Assembly (NCBI GenBank): GCA_018820315.1
Contig: JAHJOQ010000004.1
Span: 1 to 54,285, forward strand
From: Candidatus Zixiibacteriota bacterium
GTDB lineage: Bacteria; Zixibacteria; MSB-5A5; JAABVY01; JAHJOQ01
Direction: 5' to 3'
Length of the DNA: 54,285 nucleotides
The notes under the pieces were generated by a model. It worked only from the letters and a program-made list of their open reading frames with translations. It was not told where the DNA came from and searched no databases. Made by a program: the position numbers and the translations under genes. Shown piece by piece: positions 33,125 to 54,221 of the stretch. Positions within the stretch are counted from its first letter, which is position 1; each line of letters opens with the position of its first letter.

Positions 33125-33154
33125 GTGTGGCCGCGATCTCTGATCGCGGTTTGC
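33125..33154 (+). repeat. Dispersed palindromic repeat, copy 1
   Basis: This 30-nt element contains CCGCGATC-tct-GATCGCGG, a perfect 8-bp hairpin, flanked by GTGTGG and TTTGC. A second copy at 39321-39350 is identical in 29 of 30 positions and in the same orientation. The single change (C to T in the stem) still allows a G:U pair. Confidence 0.8.
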
Positions 33155-33371: not shown

Positions 33372-33391
33372 GGCAGACCGAAAGGTCTGCC
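33372..33391 (-). terminator. Hairpin after hslU
   Basis: A perfect 8-bp stem GGCAGACC / GGTCTGCC (33372-33379 with 33384-33391) closes a 4-nt loop 12 bp past the hslU stop codon. The U-run on the minus strand is weak (CCTCTGTT), so termination may be inefficient. Confidence 0.55.
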
Positions 33392-33403: not shown

Positions 33404-34780
33404 TTACAGAATATACTTCGAAAGGTCTTCGTCTTCGATCACTGTGTCGAGGCGCTTCTTGACCAGCGCTTTTGTGATCTTGATTGTCTTGGGCTTGCAT
33501 TCGGAATATTCGAACATTATGTCTTCGAGCAGAGTGGTCAGAACTGTGTGAAGCCGCCGTGCGCCTATATTCTCCGAACTTTGATTGACCTTGTCGGCAA
33601 TCGATGCGATCTCTTCGATTGCGGTTTTCTCGAAAACCAACTTTATCTTCTCGGTCTGCAGCAGTGCCGTGTATTGCTTCACAAGCGCGTTCTTAGGCTC
33701 TGTAAGAATCCTGACAAAATCATCTTTATCCAAGCTGTCCAATTCAACGCGAATCGGGAATCGTCCCTGAAGTTCCGGTATCAGGTCTGACGGTTTCGTC
33801 ATGTGGAACGCACCTGCGGCGATGAAGAGAACGTGATCGGTCCTGACCATACCATATTTGGTCATAACGCTGGAGCCCTCAACAATCGGGAGGATATCCC
33901 TCTGCACACCCTCGCGGGAGACATCGGGACCCGAAGTCCTCCCCTCGGGCGAGGCAATCTTATCGAGCTCATCGACAAATATTATTCCGGAATCTTCAAC
34001 ACTCGAAAGGGCAGCACCGATGACTTCATCCATGTCGATCAACCTGCCGACCTCATCGGCAGAGATGATCTTGAACGCCTCCTCGACCGTCAACCGACGT
34101 TTCTTGCGCTTCTTCGGCATCATCTCGGAGAACATTTCCTGAAAATTGACACCGAGTTCCTCCATACCGGATGGTGAGAATATCTCGACGATCGGAAACG
34201 CACCGCTTGTTGTCTCGATTTCGACTGTGCGCTTGTCAAGCTCGCCCTCACGGAGCTTCTCGCGGAGTTTTTCCCTGTTACGCTCCCATTTCTCAATCAA
34301 GTCCTCTTCCGGCTGCACCGGCGTTGGACCGCTGAACTTGCCATTCGTGATCTTCCTCGGAGCTTTTGGCAGCAGAAGATCAAGTATGCGTTCTTCAGCA
34401 ACCTTCTCTGCCTTGGCGCGGACCTCTTCGCCCCGCACCCGCTTGATTGTGGTCACGGCGAGATCGACAAGGTCGCGAACCATCGACTCGACATCACGGC
34501 CAACATAGCCAACCTCGGTGAATTTCGACGCCTCGACTTTAATGAACGGAGCATTGGCAAGCTGCGATAGCCTTCTGGCAATTTCAGTCTTGCCTACTCC
34601 GGTTGGGCCGATCATGATGATATTGTTGGGGAGAATCTCATCTTTGATCTCCCCCTCAACCTGCTGGCGGCGCCACCTGTTGCGAAGAGCTATGGCTACA
34701 GCTTTTTTCGCTTTTTCCTGTCCGATGATGTATTTATCGAGTTCGCCTACTATCTCTTTCGGTGTCAATTCTCTGTCCAT
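33404..34780 (-). CDS. hslU: ATP-dependent protease ATPase subunit HslU
   Basis: HslU unfolds substrates for the HslV protease. The 458-residue AAA+ protein has Walker A GPTGVGKT (58-65), the intermediate (I) domain and Walker B ([11 protein letters not shown]), and ends in DEDLSKYIL, the C-terminal tail that docks into HslV. It has its own promoter. Unlike in most genomes it is not next to hslV: 6.7 kb of other genes separate the two. Confidence 0.97.
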
Positions 34781-34801
34781 TTAAATCCTCCAAAAGGACA
34801 T

Positions 34802-34829
34802 AGTATACGTATCCTTCGAGCCATGTCAA
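34802..34829 (-). promoter_or_regulatory. Promoter of hslU
   Basis: On the minus strand TTGACA (34829-34824) and TATACT (34807-34802) are 16 bp apart, a near-consensus promoter. The start point near 34795 lies about 15 nt before the hslU ATG, which has GGAGG just upstream. Confidence 0.8.
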
Positions 34830-34984
34830 GAAGTTCGGCGCAGTCCACTCGGAATATCACCACTTCGCGATCTTCTCTTCTACACCACATCTCGTTCTTT
34901 GTTGCAGTAGGCTACAGTACTTCAGAGAAGCCGAACACGCCTGGACTGGTCCGGGAGAATTCATGGGTCTACACTCTAAACAGC

Positions 34985-35013
34985 TTGATTTATCGTGTTT
35001 TTACTGTTAGGAT
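34985..35013 (+). promoter_or_regulatory. Possible promoter of the methyltransferase gene
   Basis: TTGATT (34985-34990) and TAGGAT (35008-35013) are 17 bp apart, 65 bp before the methyltransferase ATG. Confidence 0.45.
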
Positions 35014-35078
35014 TGAGAAGCAACCTGCGCGCAATCAGACATCGAGCAGAGTCAATCATTCGTCCGGGAGGTGTGTCA

Positions 35079-35831
35079 ATGGACCACGATCCACGATGGT
35101 ACGAGAATGAAGATTTCTGGCGTGAACTCAGGCCGATGTTCTTCAATCCGGAACGCTGGGCAAGCACGGTCGACCAAGTGGACAAAATAGTAGAATTGCT
35201 CGACCTCCAACCGGGAGCGAGGATTCTGGATCTTTGCTGCGGGCCGGGACGACATTCCCTGGAATTTGCCAGACGCGGGTACTTCGTTACAGGAATCGAC
35301 AGGACAGCAGAGTACCTCGATGAAGCAAGGGCAAGCGCTGATAAAGAGGGGCTTTCGATCGAGTTCAAACAGATCGACATGAGGGATTTTCGCGACGAAA
35401 GCGCTTTTGACGCGGCCCTCAACATCTTCACTTCATTCGGATATTTCGATAATCCTGAGGATGATCGTCGTGTTATCGAGAACATCAGTGCCTCTTTGCG
35501 AGTCCATGGAAAATGTGTGATAGACACAATCGGCAAGGAAGTGGTGGCGCGAAACTTCAGGCAAAGCGATTGGCATCGTGACGGCGATGGTACGATAATC
35601 ATAGAAGAGCGGAGTATCTGCGAGGATTGGTCGAGGATCAATAACACTTGGACAATCATTAGAGATGGCAATCAGAAGGAGTTCGAGTTCACGCTCCGAT
35701 GTTATTCGGCTGTGGAACTGGCATCGCTGCTTACCGAAGGCGGCTTCAGCAATGTGAATTGCTACGGTGGCCTGTCGGGTAACTGCTACGACCACGAGGC
35801 AAGCAGGCTCGTCGTGGTCGGCGAGAAATAG
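35079..35831 (+). CDS. Class I SAM-dependent methyltransferase
   Basis: The 250-residue protein has a Rossmann-type methyltransferase core with motif I ILDLCCGPGRHSLEFARRG, the acidic end of strand 2 (GIDRTAEYL), motif FKQIDMRDF and NIFTSFGYFD. The substrate is unknown; the C-terminal region (FEFTLRCYSAVELASLLTEGGF) recalls small-molecule methyltransferases. ATG 35079 has GGGAGG 7 nt upstream; the longer frame has none. It is the first gene of the block between hslU and hslV. Confidence 0.88.
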   Translation: MDHDPRWYENEDFWRELRPMFFNPERWASTVDQVDKIVELLDLQPGARILDLCCGPGRHSLEFARRGYFVTGIDRTAEYLDEARASADKEGLSIEFKQIDMRDFRDESAFDAALNIFTSFGYFDNPEDDRRVIENISASLRVHGKCVIDTIGKEVVARNFRQSDWHRDGDGTIIIEERSICEDWSRINNTWTIIRDGNQKEFEFTLRCYSAVELASLLTEGGFSNVNCYGGLSGNCYDHEASRLVVVGEK

Positions 35832-35906
35832 TATTGCGTCGATTCCAACAATTCCGTTTACTTCTCCAGAGACGATCTGCAATGTATCGCATGCGGGGGA
35901 TGTGCC

Positions 35907-36539
35907 ATGAGACGGATTCCCGACAAGATTAGAACTGCTCTGCCGGTGGCAATGCTGCTATTGCTGTCCTGCTCTTCGAGTCTCACCGATAGGGTCAAGG
36001 CATACGAGGCATCGCATAACAGCCATGACGTGGAGGGAACGCTCGCGTTCTTCGCCGAGGATTTCAGATACGAAATGGTCGGAAGCTGGGTCGCTGAAGG
36101 CAGAGAACAGATGCGTAAGTTCGAGGAATGGGACGCTTCCATTGGCAGCGAGTTGATTTTCGATAATTACGACGTCTCCGGCGATACGGTAACATGCACC
36201 GTCATCGAGCGGAATGACTGGTTCTCCCTTGTCGGAGTCGACGCGATCTACTATGAGTGTGTGAGGATCATATTCAAAGACGGCCTGATCACAGAGATAA
36301 CAGCCGAGCAATCGCACGAGAGCATGCTGGCGACGCAGACCGCGTTTCAGGCGTTCATTGAATGGGCGGTTGAAGAGCATCCACAGCGCCTCGCCGCGCT
36401 GATGAGCGGCGCGAAATTCGAATTCAGTAAAGAGACTGCGGACAAATGGCTCTCGCTTCTGAAGGAATGGAGACAGCAACTCCGTCAGTTTGACCGGATC
36501 ACGAGAAGAATTGCTGATCGGAAATCCTCAGTCGTATAG
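35907..36539 (+). CDS. NTF2/SnoaL-like lipoprotein
   Basis: The 210-residue protein has a lipobox (LLLSC, Cys22). Residues 30-135 look like an NTF2/SnoaL-like cone fold (VKAYEASHNSHDVEGTLAFFAEDFRYEMVG, then EGREQMRKFEEWDASIG). This fold often binds small ligands. The C-terminal 60 residues are helical and charged. No catalytic residues can be named. It is 75 bp after the methyltransferase. Confidence 0.72.
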   Translation: MRRIPDKIRTALPVAMLLLLSCSSSLTDRVKAYEASHNSHDVEGTLAFFAEDFRYEMVGSWVAEGREQMRKFEEWDASIGSELIFDNYDVSGDTVTCTVIERNDWFSLVGVDAIYYECVRIIFKDGLITEITAEQSHESMLATQTAFQAFIEWAVEEHPQRLAALMSGAKFEFSKETADKWLSLLKEWRQQLRQFDRITRRIADRKSSVV

Positions 36540-36604
36540 CATATTTGCCAGCCTTGCCGTTATCTGCCATTTACAATGAATCCGGAATCTGAGTGAAATC
36601 TCGT

Positions 36605-36826
36605 ATGAAATCGATTAAGGTGTCATTTCGCAACAAGAACGACGACAGTCTTGCGGCGTCGATGGAGTTGCCGATAGATGGCCGACCGCGCAGCTACGCG
36701 CTCTTCGCGCACTGTTTCACGTGCAGCAAGGATTACAAAGCGGTATACAACATCAGCCGAACGTTGACGGTTAGAATCTCTGATACGGCGCTACAGAAAC
36801 AACCATCTCAGTCATTCACCGTTTGA
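36605..36826 (+). pseudogene. Truncated alpha/beta-hydrolase (OsmC-fusion type)
   Basis: The first 55 residues match the start of the alpha/beta-hydrolase proteins that are fused to OsmC: SFRNKNDDSLAASMELPIDG, YALFAHCFTCSKDYKAV and NISRTLT. Full-length members are several hundred residues long and continue into the first beta-alpha unit after this point. Here the match ends near 36770, followed by about 17 unrelated residues and a stop. The frame ends inside the convergent cysteine desulfurase. It is a remnant, not a gene. Confidence 0.75.
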
Positions 36827-38025
36827 ACTGCTTTAGCTCTCATAGCTTTTGCACGTTCGGCAATCTCTGCCATGGCTTCAATCGCAGCGTCTATGTGGTC
36901 CTCGGTGTTAAACGGTCCAATTGAGAATCTCACGCCTCCATGTATCTTGTCTATCCCGAGCTGCCGGTGCACCAGAGGTGCGCAGTGAAGACCAGTTCGT
37001 ATGGCGATGTTGAAATCGACATCCAGCATTATTCCGACATCACCTGCCTCCAACCCATCAATATTCACTGTCAATGTCGCAAGATGGTCATTCAGGCTGT
37101 CGCAGCAATAGGCAATCACGCCGTCGATCTGCTTGAAACTCTCGACAAGACGCGTGCAGAGTTTCATTTCATGCGCATAGATAGCATCGATTCCACCCCG
37201 CTCCTCGATCCAGTCCTGCGCCGCCCAGAGTGACGCCATGCCGACCATGTTGGGTGTCCCGAATTCCATTCTGTATGGGTAATCTTCAAGATGATACGGA
37301 TAAGCTGAGCGAACACCGGTTCCGCCCGATCTCGTCGGTCTTATGTCGAGATGCTCGCGTACACATAGTCCACCAATGCCGGTCGTTCCAAGCAGAGATT
37401 TGTGCCCTGTGAACGCCAGGACATCGACATTCATGTCGCGCATGTTGATCGGAATCATGCCTCCGGTTTGTGATGCGTCGACAGCGAAGACCACACCTGC
37501 ATCTTTGCAGACGGCACCGATTTCCTTCACAGGCTGAATTGTTCCGATGACGTTCGAGCCATGATTCACTATTACAAGCTTCGTGTTCGACCTGATTGCC
37601 TTCTTGATCGCATCCGGTTCGACGAATCCATCGCCGTTAAACGGCACGTAGGTAGCCTCTACTCCGCCATCGCGCACGAGGTGATTGATCGGACGAATTA
37701 CCGAATTATGCTCGACGTTTGTGGTGACAACGTGATCGCCTTCCGATAGAAGCCCCTGGATAATCAGATTCAGCGCATCGGTGGCGTTGTAGGTGAAACA
37801 TAACCGCTCGGGAGTGGTCTCATCACCCCCAAAGAATCTCGTGAGGCGTTTGCGGAGATCTTCAAGAAGATTGCCCGCTTCGATTGCCTTGTCAAACCCG
37901 CTCCGCCCGGGGTTGACCCCGCAGCTACGGTAGAACCCGACCATGTAATCATAGACGCTGTCTGGCTTTGGCCACGATGTTGCAGCGTTGTCAAGATAAA
38001 TCAGCTTTTCCACCTGCGACTCCAT
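36808..38025 (-). CDS. Cysteine desulfurase family protein
   Basis: This 405-residue class V aminotransferase removes sulfur from cysteine for Fe-S clusters or other sulfur uses. The PLP lysine is Lys209 (FTGHKSLLG), Asp183 (AVDASQTGG) holds the cofactor ring, and the sulfur-accepting Cys348 lies in IRTGLHCAP. It belongs to the SufS/CsdB-like subgroup rather than the NifS/IscS one. No suf genes are adjacent. It has a near-consensus promoter. Confidence 0.92.
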   Translation of the reverse strand: MESQVEKLIYLDNAATSWPKPDSVYDYMVGFYRSCGVNPGRSGFDKAIEAGNLLEDLRKRLTRFFGGDETTPERLCFTYNATDALNLIIQGLLSEGDHVVTTNVEHNSVIRPINHLVRDGGVEATYVPFNGDGFVEPDAIKKAIRSNTKLVIVNHGSNVIGTIQPVKEIGAVCKDAGVVFAVDASQTGGMIPINMRDMNVDVLAFTGHKSLLGTTGIGGLCVREHLDIRPTRSGGTGVRSAYPYHLEDYPYRMEFGTPNMVGMASLWAAQDWIEERGGIDAIYAHEMKLCTRLVESFKQIDGVIAYCCDSLNDHLATLTVNIDGLEAGDVGIMLDVDFNIAIRTGLHCAPLVHRQLGIDKIHGGVRFSIGPFNTEDHIDAAIEAMAEIAERAKAMRAKAVQTVND

Positions 38026-38102
38026 CTATTCTTAGCGTATCTCATGCACTGTAAGGTGAGATGACTACACCATCTTCTCAGAAAACTCTGAATTGCATGT
38101 GT

Positions 38103-38131
38103 AGATTAGCTAAGATTCCTGGCCATGTCAA
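38103..38131 (-). promoter_or_regulatory. Promoter of the cysteine desulfurase gene
   Basis: On the minus strand TTGACA (38131-38126) and TAATCT (38108-38103) are 17 bp apart, about 78 bp before the start codon. Confidence 0.65.
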
Positions 38132-38175
38132 GGCAATATAGCCGACAGCTTCCGAGAAGAATGGGAAAATTGACA

Positions 38176-38204
38176 TTGACGCAAAAATGTCGAATTCGTA
38201 TCTT
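38176..38204 (+). promoter_or_regulatory. Promoter of the barrel-like protein gene
   Basis: TTGACG (38176-38181) and TATCTT (38199-38204) are 17 bp apart. The start point near 38211 leaves a leader of about 36 nt. Confidence 0.6.
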
Positions 38205-38246
38205 CACGGCGAATTAACAGCAACTCACCCTTGGGAGGAAAAACAA

Positions 38247-38726
38247 ATGCGCAGAATTCTTGTATTGAGCCTGATCTTTTCGCTGATCCTGACTGCACCT
38301 GCCATTGCACAAGCCGGTTCTAAAATCGGATTTCTCGGCTGGGGACCGCGCGCGGGCCTGACGGTAAATCCTGACCAGATTCATTTCGGTGCTCATGTCT
38401 CTTTTGGTGCTCCCACAACTCCGCTGCTCATTCAGCCAAACGTAGAACTTGGATTTGGTGATGATGTTACATTGATAGCAATCAATGGAGATATGTCTTA
38501 CCTTTTCCGCTCAGCAAATGGCGCTTGGACTCCGAGCCTCGGTGGCGAGCTTGGCATGGTCAGGGTCAATGTTGACGGTTTCGGTTCCAACACCGATCTT
38601 GGAATCAGCATATTCGGTGCAATTGCCAAGACGATGGCCAACGGCAACCAGCTTTTTCTGGAGGCGAAGGTTGGCGTCGCGGATGCCCCCGATTTCAAAG
38701 CGACTATCGGATATACGCTGTTTTAG
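38247..38726 (+). CDS. Exported beta-rich protein, probably outer-membrane
   Basis: The 159-residue protein begins with a clear signal peptide (ILVLSLIFSLILTAPAIAQA). The rest is alternating hydrophobic and polar beta strands (LGWGPRAGLTVNPDQIHFGA, LLIQPNVELGFGDDV) ending in a strand with a C-terminal aromatic (ATIGYTLF), as in small outer-membrane beta-barrels. ATG 38247 follows GGGAGG; the longer frame would place the start in the promoter region. Confidence 0.8.
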   Translation: MRRILVLSLIFSLILTAPAIAQAGSKIGFLGWGPRAGLTVNPDQIHFGAHVSFGAPTTPLLIQPNVELGFGDDVTLIAINGDMSYLFRSANGAWTPSLGGELGMVRVNVDGFGSNTDLGISIFGAIAKTMANGNQLFLEAKVGVADAPDFKATIGYTLF

Positions 38727-38782
38727 CATGGTAGGGCAGGATTCCCCGAAACCTGCCATTTTGTGAACATTCAGGAGGCGAT

Positions 38783-39295
38783 ATGGACGCCCCGCACATG
38801 ATCGAAACGCTGAAAAGAAACCGCAAGCTATTCAAAAAGCTTTTCGAGGGCACCACCGTCGAGCAGGCGCGCTGGAAACCCGCTCAGGACAAGTGGTCGA
38901 TGCTCCAAGTGATGAATCATCTATATGATGAGGAGCGCGATGATTTTCGAATGAGACTCAGCTTGATCCTGGAAGATCCCGAACTCGATTGGCCGCCGAT
39001 CAATCCCGACCAGAAGGCCATCGACGAAGATTACAATTCGAAAGACCTGGCAGAGACACTGAAGAAGTTCAGTGAGGAACGGAAAGCGTCGATCAAATGG
39101 CTTGAAAGCCTCGACAACCCCGATTGGGATATCGAGAAAACTCATCCTCGTGCAGGCAGCTTGAAAGCGGGCGATTTGCTGTCGTCGTGGGTGATACACG
39201 ATTTCCTGCATCTGCGGCAACTCGCGAATATTCTGATCAAGTATACTGCATCTATGGCACAGCCCTATGCAACAGATTACGCCGGACCACAATAG
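38783..39295 (+). CDS. DinB-family protein
   Basis: This 170-residue four-helix protein matches the DinB/YfiT superfamily. Helix 2 carries WSMLQVMNHLYDEER with the first metal-binding His, and the third helix holds SSWVIHDFLHLRQL with two more. Members are metal-dependent and often act as thiol-S-transferases or hydrolases. The substrate is unknown. A GGAGG lies 8 nt before the ATG. Confidence 0.85.
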   Translation: MDAPHMIETLKRNRKLFKKLFEGTTVEQARWKPAQDKWSMLQVMNHLYDEERDDFRMRLSLILEDPELDWPPINPDQKAIDEDYNSKDLAETLKKFSEERKASIKWLESLDNPDWDIEKTHPRAGSLKAGDLLSSWVIHDFLHLRQLANILIKYTASMAQPYATDYAGPQ

Positions 39296-39320
39296 CTGTA
39301 AATTTGCATTGTATTCTCTA

Positions 39321-39350
39321 GTGTGGCCGTGATCTCTGATCGCGGTTTGC
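39321..39350 (+). repeat. Dispersed palindromic repeat, copy 2
   Basis: This is the second copy of the 30-nt element at 33125-33154, with one change (CCGTGATC in place of CCGCGATC). It lies 26 bp after the DinB stop codon, where it could act as a 3' hairpin. An open frame runs through it but has no coding character. Confidence 0.8.
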
Positions 39351-39472
39351 GTAGCAAGGCAGCGCGCTACGACGAACATCGGCCACCGACAATAACAGTT
39401 GCCGTATCCCAGCGCTTTTATTATCCTGAGCCTGAAGCAGGCATACCAAGACACAAAGGGTTGGGGAGGCTT

Positions 39473-39871
39473 ATGAAATTGCTATGGGTATCGGAACCAC
39501 TCATCTTCATTGTATGGGTGGCCATTTCAGCGTTTTTGTGGAACAATCGCTTTCGCTTCGTGAGCGACACAGCTCCAGTTTTGAGGGGACTCATATTTCC
39601 TGCCATTCTCCGCATACTGGAGATTCTGCTGCCATTGGGTGCAGCAGCTCTTATTTTCGTTCGCTATGGCATCTTGCTCAGTCTATTAACCGTAGCTGTG
39701 TTTTACATTGTCTGGAGAGTGATTTCATCCACGTACTATAAGTCAGTATTTCGCCAATATAGTCTCTTGCACATGGACGATCTGGCGCAAAAAGGAGATA
39801 TCTACGCTCACAGTAAGGCTGAGATCGACGAACTTGTGCACGAGTTGTTGATGACGAATCTCAGGAAATGA
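39473..39871 (+). CDS. Hypothetical membrane protein
   Basis: The 132-residue protein has three hydrophobic helices (about 6-22, 38-58 and 62-85) and a charged C-terminal tail (LHMDDLAQKGDIYAHSKAEID). I do not recognise it. The longer frame from 39323 runs through a repeat, so the ATG at 39473 with GGGGAGG just upstream is preferred, though the spacing is short. Confidence 0.55.
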   Translation: MKLLWVSEPLIFIVWVAISAFLWNNRFRFVSDTAPVLRGLIFPAILRILEILLPLGAAALIFVRYGILLSLLTVAVFYIVWRVISSTYYKSVFRQYSLLHMDDLAQKGDIYAHSKAEIDELVHELLMTNLRK

Positions 39872-40048
39872 ACAGGCTCGGTAGCCTACGCTTCAGGCAG
39901 GCGCGGTCGCGATATTTGATCAAGTGTGGCCATCACTGCGAAGCAGGTTATCGCCAAACGTTTCAACTACCTCTCTCGGATCGCGCGATGGTGTGATGAT
40001 AACCGTCCCCGCCCACAGGGATACAGGCAGTCCCCACTCTCATTGTCC

Positions 40049-40077
40049 TTGACGCTGTATGGCGAGACTCTTATATT
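40049..40077 (+). promoter_or_regulatory. Promoter of the trypsin-like protease gene
   Basis: TTGACG (40049-40054) and TATATT (40072-40077) are 17 bp apart. The start point near 40084 gives a 130-nt leader before the GTG start at 40214. Confidence 0.7.
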
Positions 40078-40151
40078 TGCTGCGCGGCATGAGTCGCTAT
40101 TGAAACAGGTTCAGGCGAATCGATAGGACAACTTAGGAGCAAACAACCGCA

Positions 40152-40181
40152 ATGGAAGGCGTAGCCATCTGCGCATGCTAA
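40152..40181 (+). CDS. Possible 9-residue leader peptide
   Basis: A short frame coding for MEGVAICAC starts at ATG 40152, with TAGGAG 12-13 nt upstream, and stops 32 bp before the protease start. It lies in the 130-nt leader of the protease gene. A peptide this short can arise by chance; the Cys codons near its end are the only hint of a sensing role. Confidence 0.25.
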   Translation: MEGVAICAC

Positions 40182-40213
40182 ACGCGGGTCATATCACGAG
40201 CGAGGTGACGTAA

Positions 40214-41395
40214 GTGGAAATCATAGCCCTTATCGCTGCAATAGTCACGATCTTGGTTGGAATAAGTGCACTAGTGAAATACATCAGGAAAAAGGGTGAC
40301 CCGCCATCTGCCACAAGCAATCAAACAACCCAGTCTGGAGATAACCTTAATATCACAGGTAACGTGTACATGAATCTGGGAGAGAATTTCGATCATAAGA
40401 ACATGCAAGAAATTATTTCCAGTGCGGCAAGGAAGTATCTCGAGAGAGAATTCTCCCAGTTGCACGAGAAAATCGACGATTACGTGAACCTGATCAAGTC
40501 CTCGCCAAACCGTGAGACACTGAGGAATGCAGTTGCAACTGTTTCGGGCATGGCGGCGAAAGAGACACAACACTCCAATGCGAGAGATATTGAAGGATCA
40601 ATCTGGGGCACGGCCAATACAACTCCTGAAGATAGTCAGACGTATGAGTTGGAATTCAACACGTGGAGGTCCATCTATCCACTTTTCATCTGGAATACAA
40701 TAAAAGGCTCAGACCAGCCGCCCATTCATTACGCTGGAACAGGGTTTTTCGTAATCATAGAAGGTTTTCTTACTCTGATCACAGCTGGTCACGTCATGCT
40801 GGATCGCGACGCGACAAAAGGAGAACGTCTGGTGCTATCGGAGCGAATCGGCAATACTGGCAAGCTCCACGTTCTAGAGGGTATCCCAATCTGGAAGGGC
40901 TCCGAAGATTTTTCTGCATTCATTGTATCTCAGAGCTTTGTTGATGGGCTACAAGGTCCTGTGATCGCTCTCGACGTTCATCGCGAGTTCCTGAAGCCGT
41001 TAGAGGATGTGTTTACTTTTGGATTTCCGTTTAACGTCGTCGAGAAGGCATTTGCGGACGCCCTGACCACGCAAGAGGCATTCCAGATTGAGTTGAACCA
41101 CATGCATCTCAAAGGCTACATAACAAGCGATCCTAAAGCTCAGAGTCTTCCACCGAAAATGAGACCTTTCTCTATCAATTATCAGTTGGATATCCCGAGC
41201 TATCCTGGGCTTAGTGGTGCTCCGCTACTAACAGTAAAGAACAAACGTGTAGAAGTGGCAGGCATTCTATATGCGAGCCGCAGGCTAACACAAGGTGGTA
41301 CGACAGGGGACTTCGCGGTTGCAAGCACGCACGAACCTATTGTTGAATTGGAAAATATAATCAAGGATGGCAAGGCTTCGGGCCGCATACACTGA
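40214..41395 (+). CDS. Membrane-anchored trypsin-like serine protease
   Basis: An N-terminal membrane helix (about 3-23) is followed by a linker with the repeat-like QSGDNLNITGNVYMNLGENF, a helical stretch (60-120) and a trypsin-like domain from about 150. The triad can be placed at His193 (LITAGHVM), Asp232 (SEDFSAF) and Ser334 (PGLSGAPLL). At 393 residues it lacks PDZ domains, so it is not a DegP-type protease. The GTG start has GAGGTGA 5 nt upstream. Cytoplasmic trypsin-like proteases of this kind occur in conflict systems; that role is only a possibility here. Confidence 0.8.
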   Translation: MEIIALIAAIVTILVGISALVKYIRKKGDPPSATSNQTTQSGDNLNITGNVYMNLGENFDHKNMQEIISSAARKYLEREFSQLHEKIDDYVNLIKSSPNRETLRNAVATVSGMAAKETQHSNARDIEGSIWGTANTTPEDSQTYELEFNTWRSIYPLFIWNTIKGSDQPPIHYAGTGFFVIIEGFLTLITAGHVMLDRDATKGERLVLSERIGNTGKLHVLEGIPIWKGSEDFSAFIVSQSFVDGLQGPVIALDVHREFLKPLEDVFTFGFPFNVVEKAFADALTTQEAFQIELNHMHLKGYITSDPKAQSLPPKMRPFSINYQLDIPSYPGLSGAPLLTVKNKRVEVAGILYASRRLTQGGTTGDFAVASTHEPIVELENIIKDGKASGRIH

Positions 41396-41430
41396 AACGG
41401 AATGGAGATGCTCCCGATCACACTTCTTGC

Positions 41431-41490
41431 GCTGACAGGAGCCCTTTCCTGTCAGCTCTATTAAGTCGTCAGGAAAGGGTTCCTGACGAC
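41431..41490. terminator. Twin hairpins between convergent genes
   Basis: Two perfect hairpins lie between the protease gene and hslV: GCTGACAGGA / TCCTGTCAGC (41431-41440 with 41447-41456) and GTCGTCAGGAA / TTCCTGACGAC (41465-41475 with 41480-41490). Neither has a good U-run. The region CCCTTTCCTG (41442-41451) is also complementary to CAGGAAAGGG (41470-41479), so a third fold is possible. Confidence 0.65.
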
Positions 41491-41521
41491 GCGTTTGTGA
41501 CCGCGTAGGTGAAACCACCCC

Positions 41522-42049
41522 TTACAGCGTCTTCACATTAATCTTGTCATTGGTGTAGACACAGATTGAGGAGGCAATCTTGAGGGATTCGCGTACGACC
41601 TGTTCGGCGTTTAGCTTCGAGTGAGCCATCAGCGCGCGTGCGGCTGCAAGTGCGAAATTCCCACCCGAGCCAATCGCCACGATTCCGTCATCCGGTTCGA
41701 CAACATCGCCGTTGCCCGAAATCCAGAACGCATGCTCTTTGTCGATAACCGCCATCAGAGCCTCCAGACGCCGGAGAAATTTGTCACTGCGCCAATCCTT
41801 GGCGAGTTCGACAGCGGCCCGTGAAAGGCTCCCCTCGTATTCCTCGATCTTCTGCTCGAAACGTTCGAATAGAGTCAAGGCATCGGCAGCAGACCCCGCG
41901 AATCCGGCGAGGACTTTGCCATCATACATCGAGCGAATCTTGGTAGCGGTCTCTTTCAATATCGTCTCATCATACGACACCTGACCGTCGCCGCCGATAG
42001 CGACCTTACCCTTGTGCCGCAGTCCGATAATAGTAGTCGAGCGAACCAT
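41522..42049 (-). CDS. hslV: ATP-dependent protease peptidase subunit HslV
   Basis: HslV is the threonine peptidase of the HslUV protease. The 175-residue protein carries the catalytic Thr in [22 protein letters not shown], after a short MVRS leader that must be removed. It follows xerC after 18 bp. Its partner hslU is 6.7 kb away. Confidence 0.97.
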
Positions 42050-42067: not shown

Positions 42068-42967
42068 TCATGCGCGCGGGTGAGCTTTCTTATATACCTG
42101 TTTCAATCTCTCCAGCGAAACATGCGAATATATCTGCGTTGTCGACAGCGACGAATGCCCGAGCATTTCCTTGATCGCCATAATATCAGCACCGGCATCG
42201 AGAAGATGCGTTGCGAATGAATGCCGCAGCTTGTGCGGCGATATCGGATCGGTCGTGCCGAGCATCCTCGAATACTTCTTCACTATACGCGCCATTGTGC
42301 GCGCTGTCAACACTCCTCCGAGCCGATTCAGAAAAACTCTGTCATGTCGCGCATCGGGAAACTGGGAAACACGCCTCGCAAGATAGTTGTCGAGTGCGAT
42401 TTGCGCGTATTTGCCCACGGGTACCAGTCTCTCTTTTCTACGCTTACCGATTACGCGCAAGTTGCCGCCCGCCGGATCGATGTCATCAAATCGAACGGCA
42501 GCTAACTCGGATACACGGCACCCTGTAGAGTATAGCGTCTCGATTATAGCAAGATCGCGGCTGCCGAGAAACGTCTCAGGATCGGGAAATCCCATCAGCC
42601 GTTCGACATCGGATTGAATCAGGAATCGGGGTAACTTCTTCTCGAATCTCACGGTCATTATCGCCGCACCAAGATTCTCTGAGGTGACGCTGTTGCTGTG
42701 AAGATACTTGAAGTAGCTCTTGAGTGACGAAAGCACGCGGCAAATCGACCTATTGGAGAGCCCGTCAGCATGAAGCCGCCTTATGAAATCTCGGATCACA
42801 CGAGATAGTCTTTGCTCGATCTCTTTCGTCGGGATTGACTTCTCTTCGACGAATGCGCGGAATCGCACGAGATCGTTTCGGTAAGCAGTAATAGTGTTGA
42901 GTGAATAGGATTTCTGTTCGAGGAGGTGCTTCAGGAAAGCTTCAGAATGCCTTTTACTTGCCGGCAT
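42068..42967 (-). CDS. xerC: Tyrosine recombinase XerC/XerD family
   Basis: This recombinase resolves chromosome dimers. The 299-residue protein has an N-terminal SAM-like core-binding domain and the catalytic residues Arg151 (TGCRVSEL), Lys175, His245 and Arg248 (HKLRHSF), His271 and Tyr280 (TQIYSHV). Its place between topA and hslV is the conserved xerC position. It overlaps the topA stop by 14 bp. The organism probably uses it with a second Xer protein. Confidence 0.93.
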   Translation of the reverse strand: MPASKRHSEAFLKHLLEQKSYSLNTITAYRNDLVRFRAFVEEKSIPTKEIEQRLSRVIRDFIRRLHADGLSNRSICRVLSSLKSYFKYLHSNSVTSENLGAAIMTVRFEKKLPRFLIQSDVERLMGFPDPETFLGSRDLAIIETLYSTGCRVSELAAVRFDDIDPAGGNLRVIGKRRKERLVPVGKYAQIALDNYLARRVSQFPDARHDRVFLNRLGGVLTARTMARIVKKYSRMLGTTDPISPHKLRHSFATHLLDAGADIMAIKEMLGHSSLSTTQIYSHVSLERLKQVYKKAHPRA

Positions 42968-45565: not shown

Positions 45566-45635
45566 GCTGTCTCCTTTCATTACCCAGTGTTGAAATGACC
45601 GCCGGTCTCAGATTGTTCCCATTCTGAACAGCCTC

Positions 45636-45774
45636 GAATTACACTGGAGAATCCAGAAGACGACCAGGATTGACCTGATGCAGCCCTGAGCCGATGTGTT
45701 GAGAATGTCGTCAAATGGATAAGATCCTTTAGAATCAGGAGGACTCTTTTCTGATGAATTCTCCGGTGTAATTC
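45636..45774. repeat. Terminal inverted repeat element between yicC and rpoZ
   Basis: A 17-bp inverted repeat (GAATTACACTGGAGAAT at 45636-45652 against ATTCTCCGGTGTAATTC at 45758-45774, 16 of 17 matching) encloses 105 bp. No gene lies between. The size and ends recall a miniature transposable element, though a large RNA hairpin is also possible. The right end is 8 bp from the yicC stop. Confidence 0.6.
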
Positions 45775-45781
45775 AGCCTCA

Positions 45782-46660
45782 TCACTCTATGTTCTGTACC
45801 TGCTCTCGCAGTTTCTCGATCTCTTCTTTGAGCAATATCACTTCTTTCGATATGCCGGTTGAGATGGATTTCGAGCCAATTGTGTTGGCTTCGCGATTAA
45901 GTTCCTGAAGAAGGAAATTGAGCCTCTTGCCGACCGGACCTGATTCATTGAGAGTATCGAGGAACTGTTGCAGATGGCTATCTATCCTAACGCATTCCTC
46001 GGTTACATCGCATTTCTCAGCGACTATTGCCGCCTCGACTGCTACCCTCTCTCCGGGGTCGGCCAGTTCGCTCAACAGCTCCTTGATGCGCGCTTCGAGC
46101 TTTGCACGATACAGATCTACTGCTTCGCTCGACATAGAACGCACCTGCTGTACTGATTCCCCTATCTTCGCAATACGGGGTCTCATGTCGGCTGCCAGCC
46201 TTTCGCCTTCCTGACCCCGCATTTCCATCAGACTATCAAGCGCGAGATCAACAGCCCCTTCGACTACCTTAGCGATCGCCTCTAGATCATCCTTCTCCTC
46301 AATCGGCTCAAGAATGTCCTCAAGGTTCATGAGATCCGACAGGCTGATATCTTTAGACAGGGAGAATTTGTCCTGCAGCTGCTTAAACACTTTTACATAC
46401 ATCTCCGCGACAGACTCGTTCAATTTCAATTGCCCTGCCGCGACAACATCTGATTTCCACGACACAGTGCAGATGACCTTGCCGCGCTTAATCCTGGAGT
46501 TCACCTGCTCTTTGATCTTCGTCTCAAGCGAATAAAGCGTCCTGGGGAGCTTGATCTGAGTTTCGAAGAACCTGTTATTCAGCGAGGACAGTTCAATAAC
46601 TACTCTGGAACCGTTCTCGGCCTTGTCGCCCTGACCATAACCTGTCATACTACATATCAT
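45782..46660 (-). CDS. yicC: YicC-family endoribonuclease
   Basis: YicC proteins are endoribonucleases involved in small RNA decay and stationary-phase survival. The 292-residue protein has the N-terminal MTGYGQG motif and LNNRFFETQIKLPR, and the C-terminal helical DUF1732 region ending in NREANTIGSKS. It has a promoter at 46684-46712 and GGAGAG before the ATG. It heads the yicC-rpoZ-topA-xerC-hslV series. Confidence 0.93.
   Translation of the reverse strand: MICSMTGYGQGDKAENGSRVVIELSSLNNRFFETQIKLPRTLYSLETKIKEQVNSRIKRGKVICTVSWKSDVVAAGQLKLNESVAEMYVKVFKQLQDKFSLSKDISLSDLMNLEDILEPIEEKDDLEAIAKVVEGAVDLALDSLMEMRGQEGERLAADMRPRIAKIGESVQQVRSMSSEAVDLYRAKLEARIKELLSELADPGERVAVEAAIVAEKCDVTEECVRIDSHLQQFLDTLNESGPVGKRLNFLLQELNREANTIGSKSISTGISKEVILLKEEIEKLREQVQNIE

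Positions 46661-54144: not shown

Positions 54145-54221
<77 letters not shown>

Follow-up and report, generated by a model that had tools for sequence, protein, structure and literature searches.

Separation of hslV and hslU in one order of Zixibacteria, with gene content that differs between lineages

The hslV and hslU genes, which lie side by side in most genomes of Zixibacteria, a bacterial phylum that has received little study, are separated by a 6.7-kb block of other genes in the window (the whole stretch of 54,285 nucleotides analysed in this study), and the order to which this genome belongs has the same separation with different genes in the gap. The split appears to be old, and its cargo young. 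We consider it probable (about 0.8) that the operon was broken once in the ancestor of the order and that the gap then became a tolerated breakpoint exchanging ordinary chromosomal genes. The site is a rearrangement-prone breakpoint that followed the loss of operon linkage, and not a hot spot driven by XerC.

The hslV and hslU genes of the window

The two partner genes of the HslVU protease, hslV and hslU, are usually neighbours. In the window, both are on the minus strand, and positions 34781–41521 are exactly the interval between the start of hslU (34780) and the end of hslV (41522). The spacing is 6,741 bp, or 6,744 bp when measured between matches. The 6.7-kb separation described in an earlier note on this DNA was thereby confirmed, with both genes complete. 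The genes concerned are as follows:

33404–34780, minus strand: hslU, intact, 458 aa, with the conserved C-terminal tail ...DEDLSKYIL
41522–42049, minus strand: hslV, intact (TIGR03692)
42068–42967, minus strand: xerC, member of the conserved gene string, upstream of hslV

HslV was assigned to the peptidase subunit of the proteasome-like family by TIGR03692 (269.9 bits against a cutoff of 157.75), with the match beginning at residue 5, which is the TTI threonine. HslU matched AAA_2 and aligned end to end with the proteins of order relatives at 68–82% identity, including one relative in which residues 1–458 aligned at 82%. The named genomes nearest to the hslU gene of the window are Candidatus Zixiibacteriota. 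Because both subunits are intact, HslVU presumably still assembles in trans, and an HslU without an adjoining HslV is no evidence of a missing protease. A palindrome, GGCAGACCGAAAGGTCTGCC, is located at 33372–33391, directly 3′ of hslU, and is possibly the hslU terminator.

Gene order across the phylum

A total of 133 Zixibacteria genomes were compared; hslV was detected in 115, and gap statistics were calculated from the 105 genomes with both genes on the same contig and strand. The median gap was 23 bp, and 98 of the 105 genomes had a gap of 300 bp or less, in agreement with the earlier statement that the two genes normally touch; against this background the wide spacing in the window is no product of chance. 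Gaps above 1 kb were present in only three of these genomes, namely, the window genome (G000; 6,744 bp), G004 (1,851 bp) and G007 (1,775 bp), all of the same order. An hslVU operon in the sense of adjacent and co-directional genes is thus absent from the window genome.

The string yicC-(gmk)-rpoZ-topA-xerC-hslV-hslU-argF, in which gmk was named from its position and one match, recurs whole or in part in most families. The proposed conservation of its rpoZ-to-hslU portion therefore holds across the phylum, with a break in the string in the window. The two outer parts on either side of the break are still in place, which makes the block an in situ interruption. The uninterrupted pair that the earlier note suggested looking for was found in relatives outside the order, where hslV and hslU are adjacent. 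A literature search found no paper treating hslV in Zixibacteria.

In five near-complete genomes of the phylum (G017, G047, G068, G078 and G114), hslV was not detected and hslU gave only ClpX-like matches, which suggests that HslVU is dispensable or has been lost in them.

Separation within the order and its age

The order comprises families f1, to which the window genome belongs, and f2. The split was present in all five readable relatives of the order, and the cargo differed; it was seen on one contig in three genomes only, and the others were read from contig interiors or ends. In G004 and G007 (f2), a single co-directional Na+:sulfate symporter gene separates hslV from hslU, and the contig ends of G006 (f2) agree with this arrangement; relatives of the symporter with 58–61% identity occur elsewhere in f1 genomes, including G000 (C98). 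In G002 (f1), methyltransferase and ferredoxin-like genes follow hslV, and hslU has ChaN-like and DUF418 genes as neighbours on a separate contig. In G001 (f1), an opposite-strand SnoaL/M1 gene precedes hslU.

A five-gene tree (HslU, TopA, XerC, HslV and ArgF) joined f1 and f2 with a support of 100 and placed f3 as their sister with a support of 99; hslV and hslU are adjacent in f3. One ancestral split in the order would account for this distribution, although separate splits in f1 and f2 are possible because their cargo is unrelated. Two further splits were observed in f4 (G014) and f17 (G123; contigs C121 and C205, loci L285 and L286), and these are independent of that of the order because they lie elsewhere in the tree; a sharing of the ancestral split by f4 was rejected for this reason. 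Separations in G021, G122, G094 and G051 were contig breaks and were left out of the split count.

The earlier note had proposed that the same gene order in all relatives would indicate an old and stable arrangement. The split is indeed common to the order, but the content of the gap is young and changing, and neither a recent insertion nor an old stable arrangement fits this pattern. A metagenome misassembly could also separate the two genes; the source genome is a draft of 173 contigs, and repeats occur inside the block. Such an error is very improbable here: the independent assemblies of relatives are also split, a related SnoaL gene stands beside hslU in G001, a promoter-like site before hslU is common to the relatives, the ancestral order is retained in both outer flanks, and the window contains no Ns.

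Promoter-like site before hslU

One site directly upstream of hslU was recorded:

34802–34829, minus strand: hslU promoter-like site, TTGACA-16-TATACT

This site has 11 of 12 consensus matches, lies 21 bp before the hslU ATG, and was equalled by none of 300 shuffles, so the near-consensus promoter reported earlier stands as a consensus match. A TTGACT-type −35 box with a −10-like box is located at the corresponding place in five relatives of the order. In all six f1 and f2 genomes read, the TTGAC box occupies one position before hslU and a −10-like box follows 15–16 bp downstream; taken one at a time, only the sites of G000 and G002 outscore shuffles. A TTGAC-type site at that position is missing from most unsplit relatives. 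The common position across the order is the main argument that the site, known as a consensus match, would act as the hslU promoter. The pattern fits an hslU that was already transcribed as a unit of its own when f1 and f2 diverged, and the split looks old because the site is common to the hslU genes of the order.

The same observations may be read as a selected regulatory change, in which separate promoters allow HslU to be made independently of HslV. The persistence of the split, the site common to the order and the two more independent splits in the phylum (G014 and G123) accord with it. However, any split would oblige hslU to have a promoter, whose presence is then no sign of selection for uncoupling; the cargo has no connection to proteolysis, and several of the near-complete Zixibacteria genomes yielded neither HslV nor HslU, suggesting weak constraint on the system. 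We regard such selection as unlikely.

Genes of the block

The block contains eight plausible open reading frames, seven on the plus strand and one on the minus strand, consistent with the earlier description of nearly all its genes as lying opposite to hslV and hslU:

34995–35831, plus strand: SAM-dependent methyltransferase; likely real start ATG 35079; relatives in the order only about 31% identical (paralogue level)
35907–36539, plus strand: SnoaL-like lipoprotein, 210 aa; 54% identical over 162 aa to the G001 domain
36593–36826, plus strand: 5′ fragment of an alpha/beta-hydrolase/OsmC gene, about 60 residues, broken at about 36776
36808–38025, minus strand: cysteine desulfurase-family protein (class V aminotransferase, TIGR01977), an order-wide gene
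38187–38726, plus strand: small barrel-like protein with a signal peptide; no family match, barrel inferred from sequence
38783–39295, plus strand: DinB_2 superfamily protein, without a convincing order relative
39323–39871, plus strand: hypothetical protein, 182 aa; probably starts at ATG 39473, the GTG start given in the gene list being inside repeat R1
40214–41395, plus strand: trypsin-like peptidase domain protein with an N-terminal hydrophobic segment; weak Pfam and PADLOC matches

The block proved to be a mosaic assembled from chromosomal genes. Compared as DNA, it has one main matching place in the order, the cysteine desulfurase-family gene, whose protein is 59–82% and DNA 67–75% identical in five order relatives, on contigs without hslVU, those of G001 and G003 being short. 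A second copy in G000 was not detected at the DNA level. The truncated gene reported in the block was verified: 36593–36826 aligns only over approximately residues 1–61 of longer bifunctional alpha/beta-hydrolase/OsmC proteins, at about 50% identity. As the hydrolase is cut within about 30 bp of the end of the cysteine desulfurase-family gene, this point marks a rearrangement junction.

The gap content differs between lineages, which is the varying cargo that the earlier note had expected from a comparison. The small barrel-like protein has relatives of 44–45% identity elsewhere in G004, and the sole order relative of the trypsin-like protein is a 34% partial match in one member; good relatives of the DinB_2, 182-aa and trypsin-like genes were not found within the order. 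The SnoaL domain in G001 directly adjoins hslU on the opposite strand, within an 838-aa protein (L093:129-2645) that appears to combine a SnoaL-like lipoprotein domain, an M1-peptidase-like part and TPR repeats. The SnoaL-like gene of the window was considered as a truncated copy of this protein, and the proposal was rejected given stand-alone f2 forms of about 200–211 aa; a fusion is the likelier origin of the G001 protein. A defence island was likewise rejected, since the PADLOC matches are generic (methyltransferase to mad2, desulfurase to SspA/DndA, and a weak LmuA) and without partner genes. No RNA family was found in the block.

Dispersed palindromic repeats

Repeats in the block had been noted earlier, and they proved to belong to three families dispersed across the genome:

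33125–33154, plus strand: R1, first copy, 3′ of hslU and outside the block
38721–38766, no strand assigned: R3, dispersed palindromic repeat
39321–39350, plus strand: R1, second copy, 29/30 identical to the first
41428–41505, no strand assigned: R2, dispersed double hairpin located where the trypsin-like gene and hslV converge

R1 has 26 genome copies at three or fewer mismatches (none in a reversed control), and R2 and R3 are also multi-copy; all three are thus REP-like in the sense of short palindromes with many genome copies. Short palindromic repeats stand at several of the gene ends of the block, and no further R1–R3 copies were found within the window. Four copies in 8.4 kb compare with 0.11 expected (P about 6e-6, assuming about 51 genome-wide copies). 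This clustering is suggestive only, as the copy number for the genome is a minimum and the interval was picked post hoc. R2, lying between convergent genes, probably also ends transcription. The repeats may be substrates or by-products of rearrangement, or merely terminators. Palindromic repeats in G000 are often in arrays (C103, C59 and C137), and R2-like copies are also present in G001 and G003.

Mobile elements and XerC

The earlier note had viewed the block as an insertion hot spot next to xerC, and the evidence does not support this view. The hslV gene stands between xerC and the block, and xerC is a housekeeping neighbour that belongs to the string in nearly all relatives. An insertion driven by XerC was rejected: the block has no att-like ends, and xerC occupies the same place in uninterrupted relatives.

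A genomic island or another mobile insertion that entered the hslV-hslU interval, perhaps by recombination of the XerC type, would explain why three genes lack good order relatives, why cargo differs between lineages and why repeats occur. Nevertheless, no integrase, transposase or phage gene was found in the block by Pfam, NCBIfam, PHROGs and PADLOC scans, and no tRNA is nearby, the sole tRNA of the window being at 54145. The GC content of the block (0.48–0.53) lies inside the range of the window, without compositional anomaly. No att-like direct repeats bound the block: R1–R3 are dispersed families, and the R1 copies at 33125 and 39321, members of a genome-wide family, enclose hslU and part of the block and not the block itself. 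One cargo gene, that of the cysteine desulfurase family, is native to the order, and relatives lacking the cargo of the window are also split. An empty site with adjacent hslV and hslU was not found among the readable order relatives, which include no genome of the same genus. An island is accordingly an improbable explanation.

Comparison with known systems and proposed history

In Lactobacillus plantarum, a gene of the XerC/CodV family (lp_1847), hslV (lp_1846) and hslU (lp_1845) are adjacent (PMC3842655), and in E. coli one promoter drives the transcription of hslVU (PMC2228313). The window resembles this heat-shock operon (clpQY) in its intact HslV and HslU, its xerC-hslV order and a distal argF as in other Zixibacteria, but differs in that hslU is outside the hslV transcript, with 6.7 kb of mainly opposite-strand genes between them and a promoter-like site of its own. 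Gene-order changes around hslVU are known in Mannheimia (PMC2228313), where a conserved string is likewise broken in one lineage, leaving remnants and new neighbours; however, Mannheimia keeps the pair together or loses it while the flank changes, whereas in the order of the window the pair itself is split. Genomic islands and integrase-linked hot spots share variable cargo at a fixed site between conserved genes, but the block lacks mobility genes, repeats at its boundaries, a tRNA and a foreign composition, and relatives are split whatever their cargo.

In the favoured history of a single break, the hslV-hslU junction would have been broken in the common ancestor of f1 and f2, and hslU would have come to be transcribed separately, from a promoter of its own. 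Linkage would then no longer be selected, and the gap would be tolerated as a breakpoint where chromosomal rearrangement imports, swaps and truncates ordinary chromosomal genes; we infer that recombination, repeat-mediated or other, was the agent. The outcomes would be the symporter gene in f2, the eight-gene mosaic of the window and an f1 member whose hslU has moved off to another place entirely (G002). A stronger version is doubtful, namely, that the order permanently uncoupled HslU from HslV, with hslU under separate regulation and with flanks at which rearranged genes land again and again, perhaps by way of the dispersed palindromic repeats.

The case is a fresh example of a known process, operon break-up by rearrangement, and is well supported and fairly ordinary. 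Its value is that hslV and hslU are very tightly linked in the phylum, so that an order in which this linkage is lost, while both subunits stay intact and a promoter-like site is common to its hslU genes, is a clean natural instance of operon dissolution.

A minor difference was observed in the same string: most relatives have a guanylate kinase-sized gene between rpoZ and yicC, which is absent in G000 (gap 45580–45782) and G002, and the guanylate kinase-like gene that f1 genomes have instead is a divergent one at another place (G000:C117), sharing about 35% identity with that of f2.
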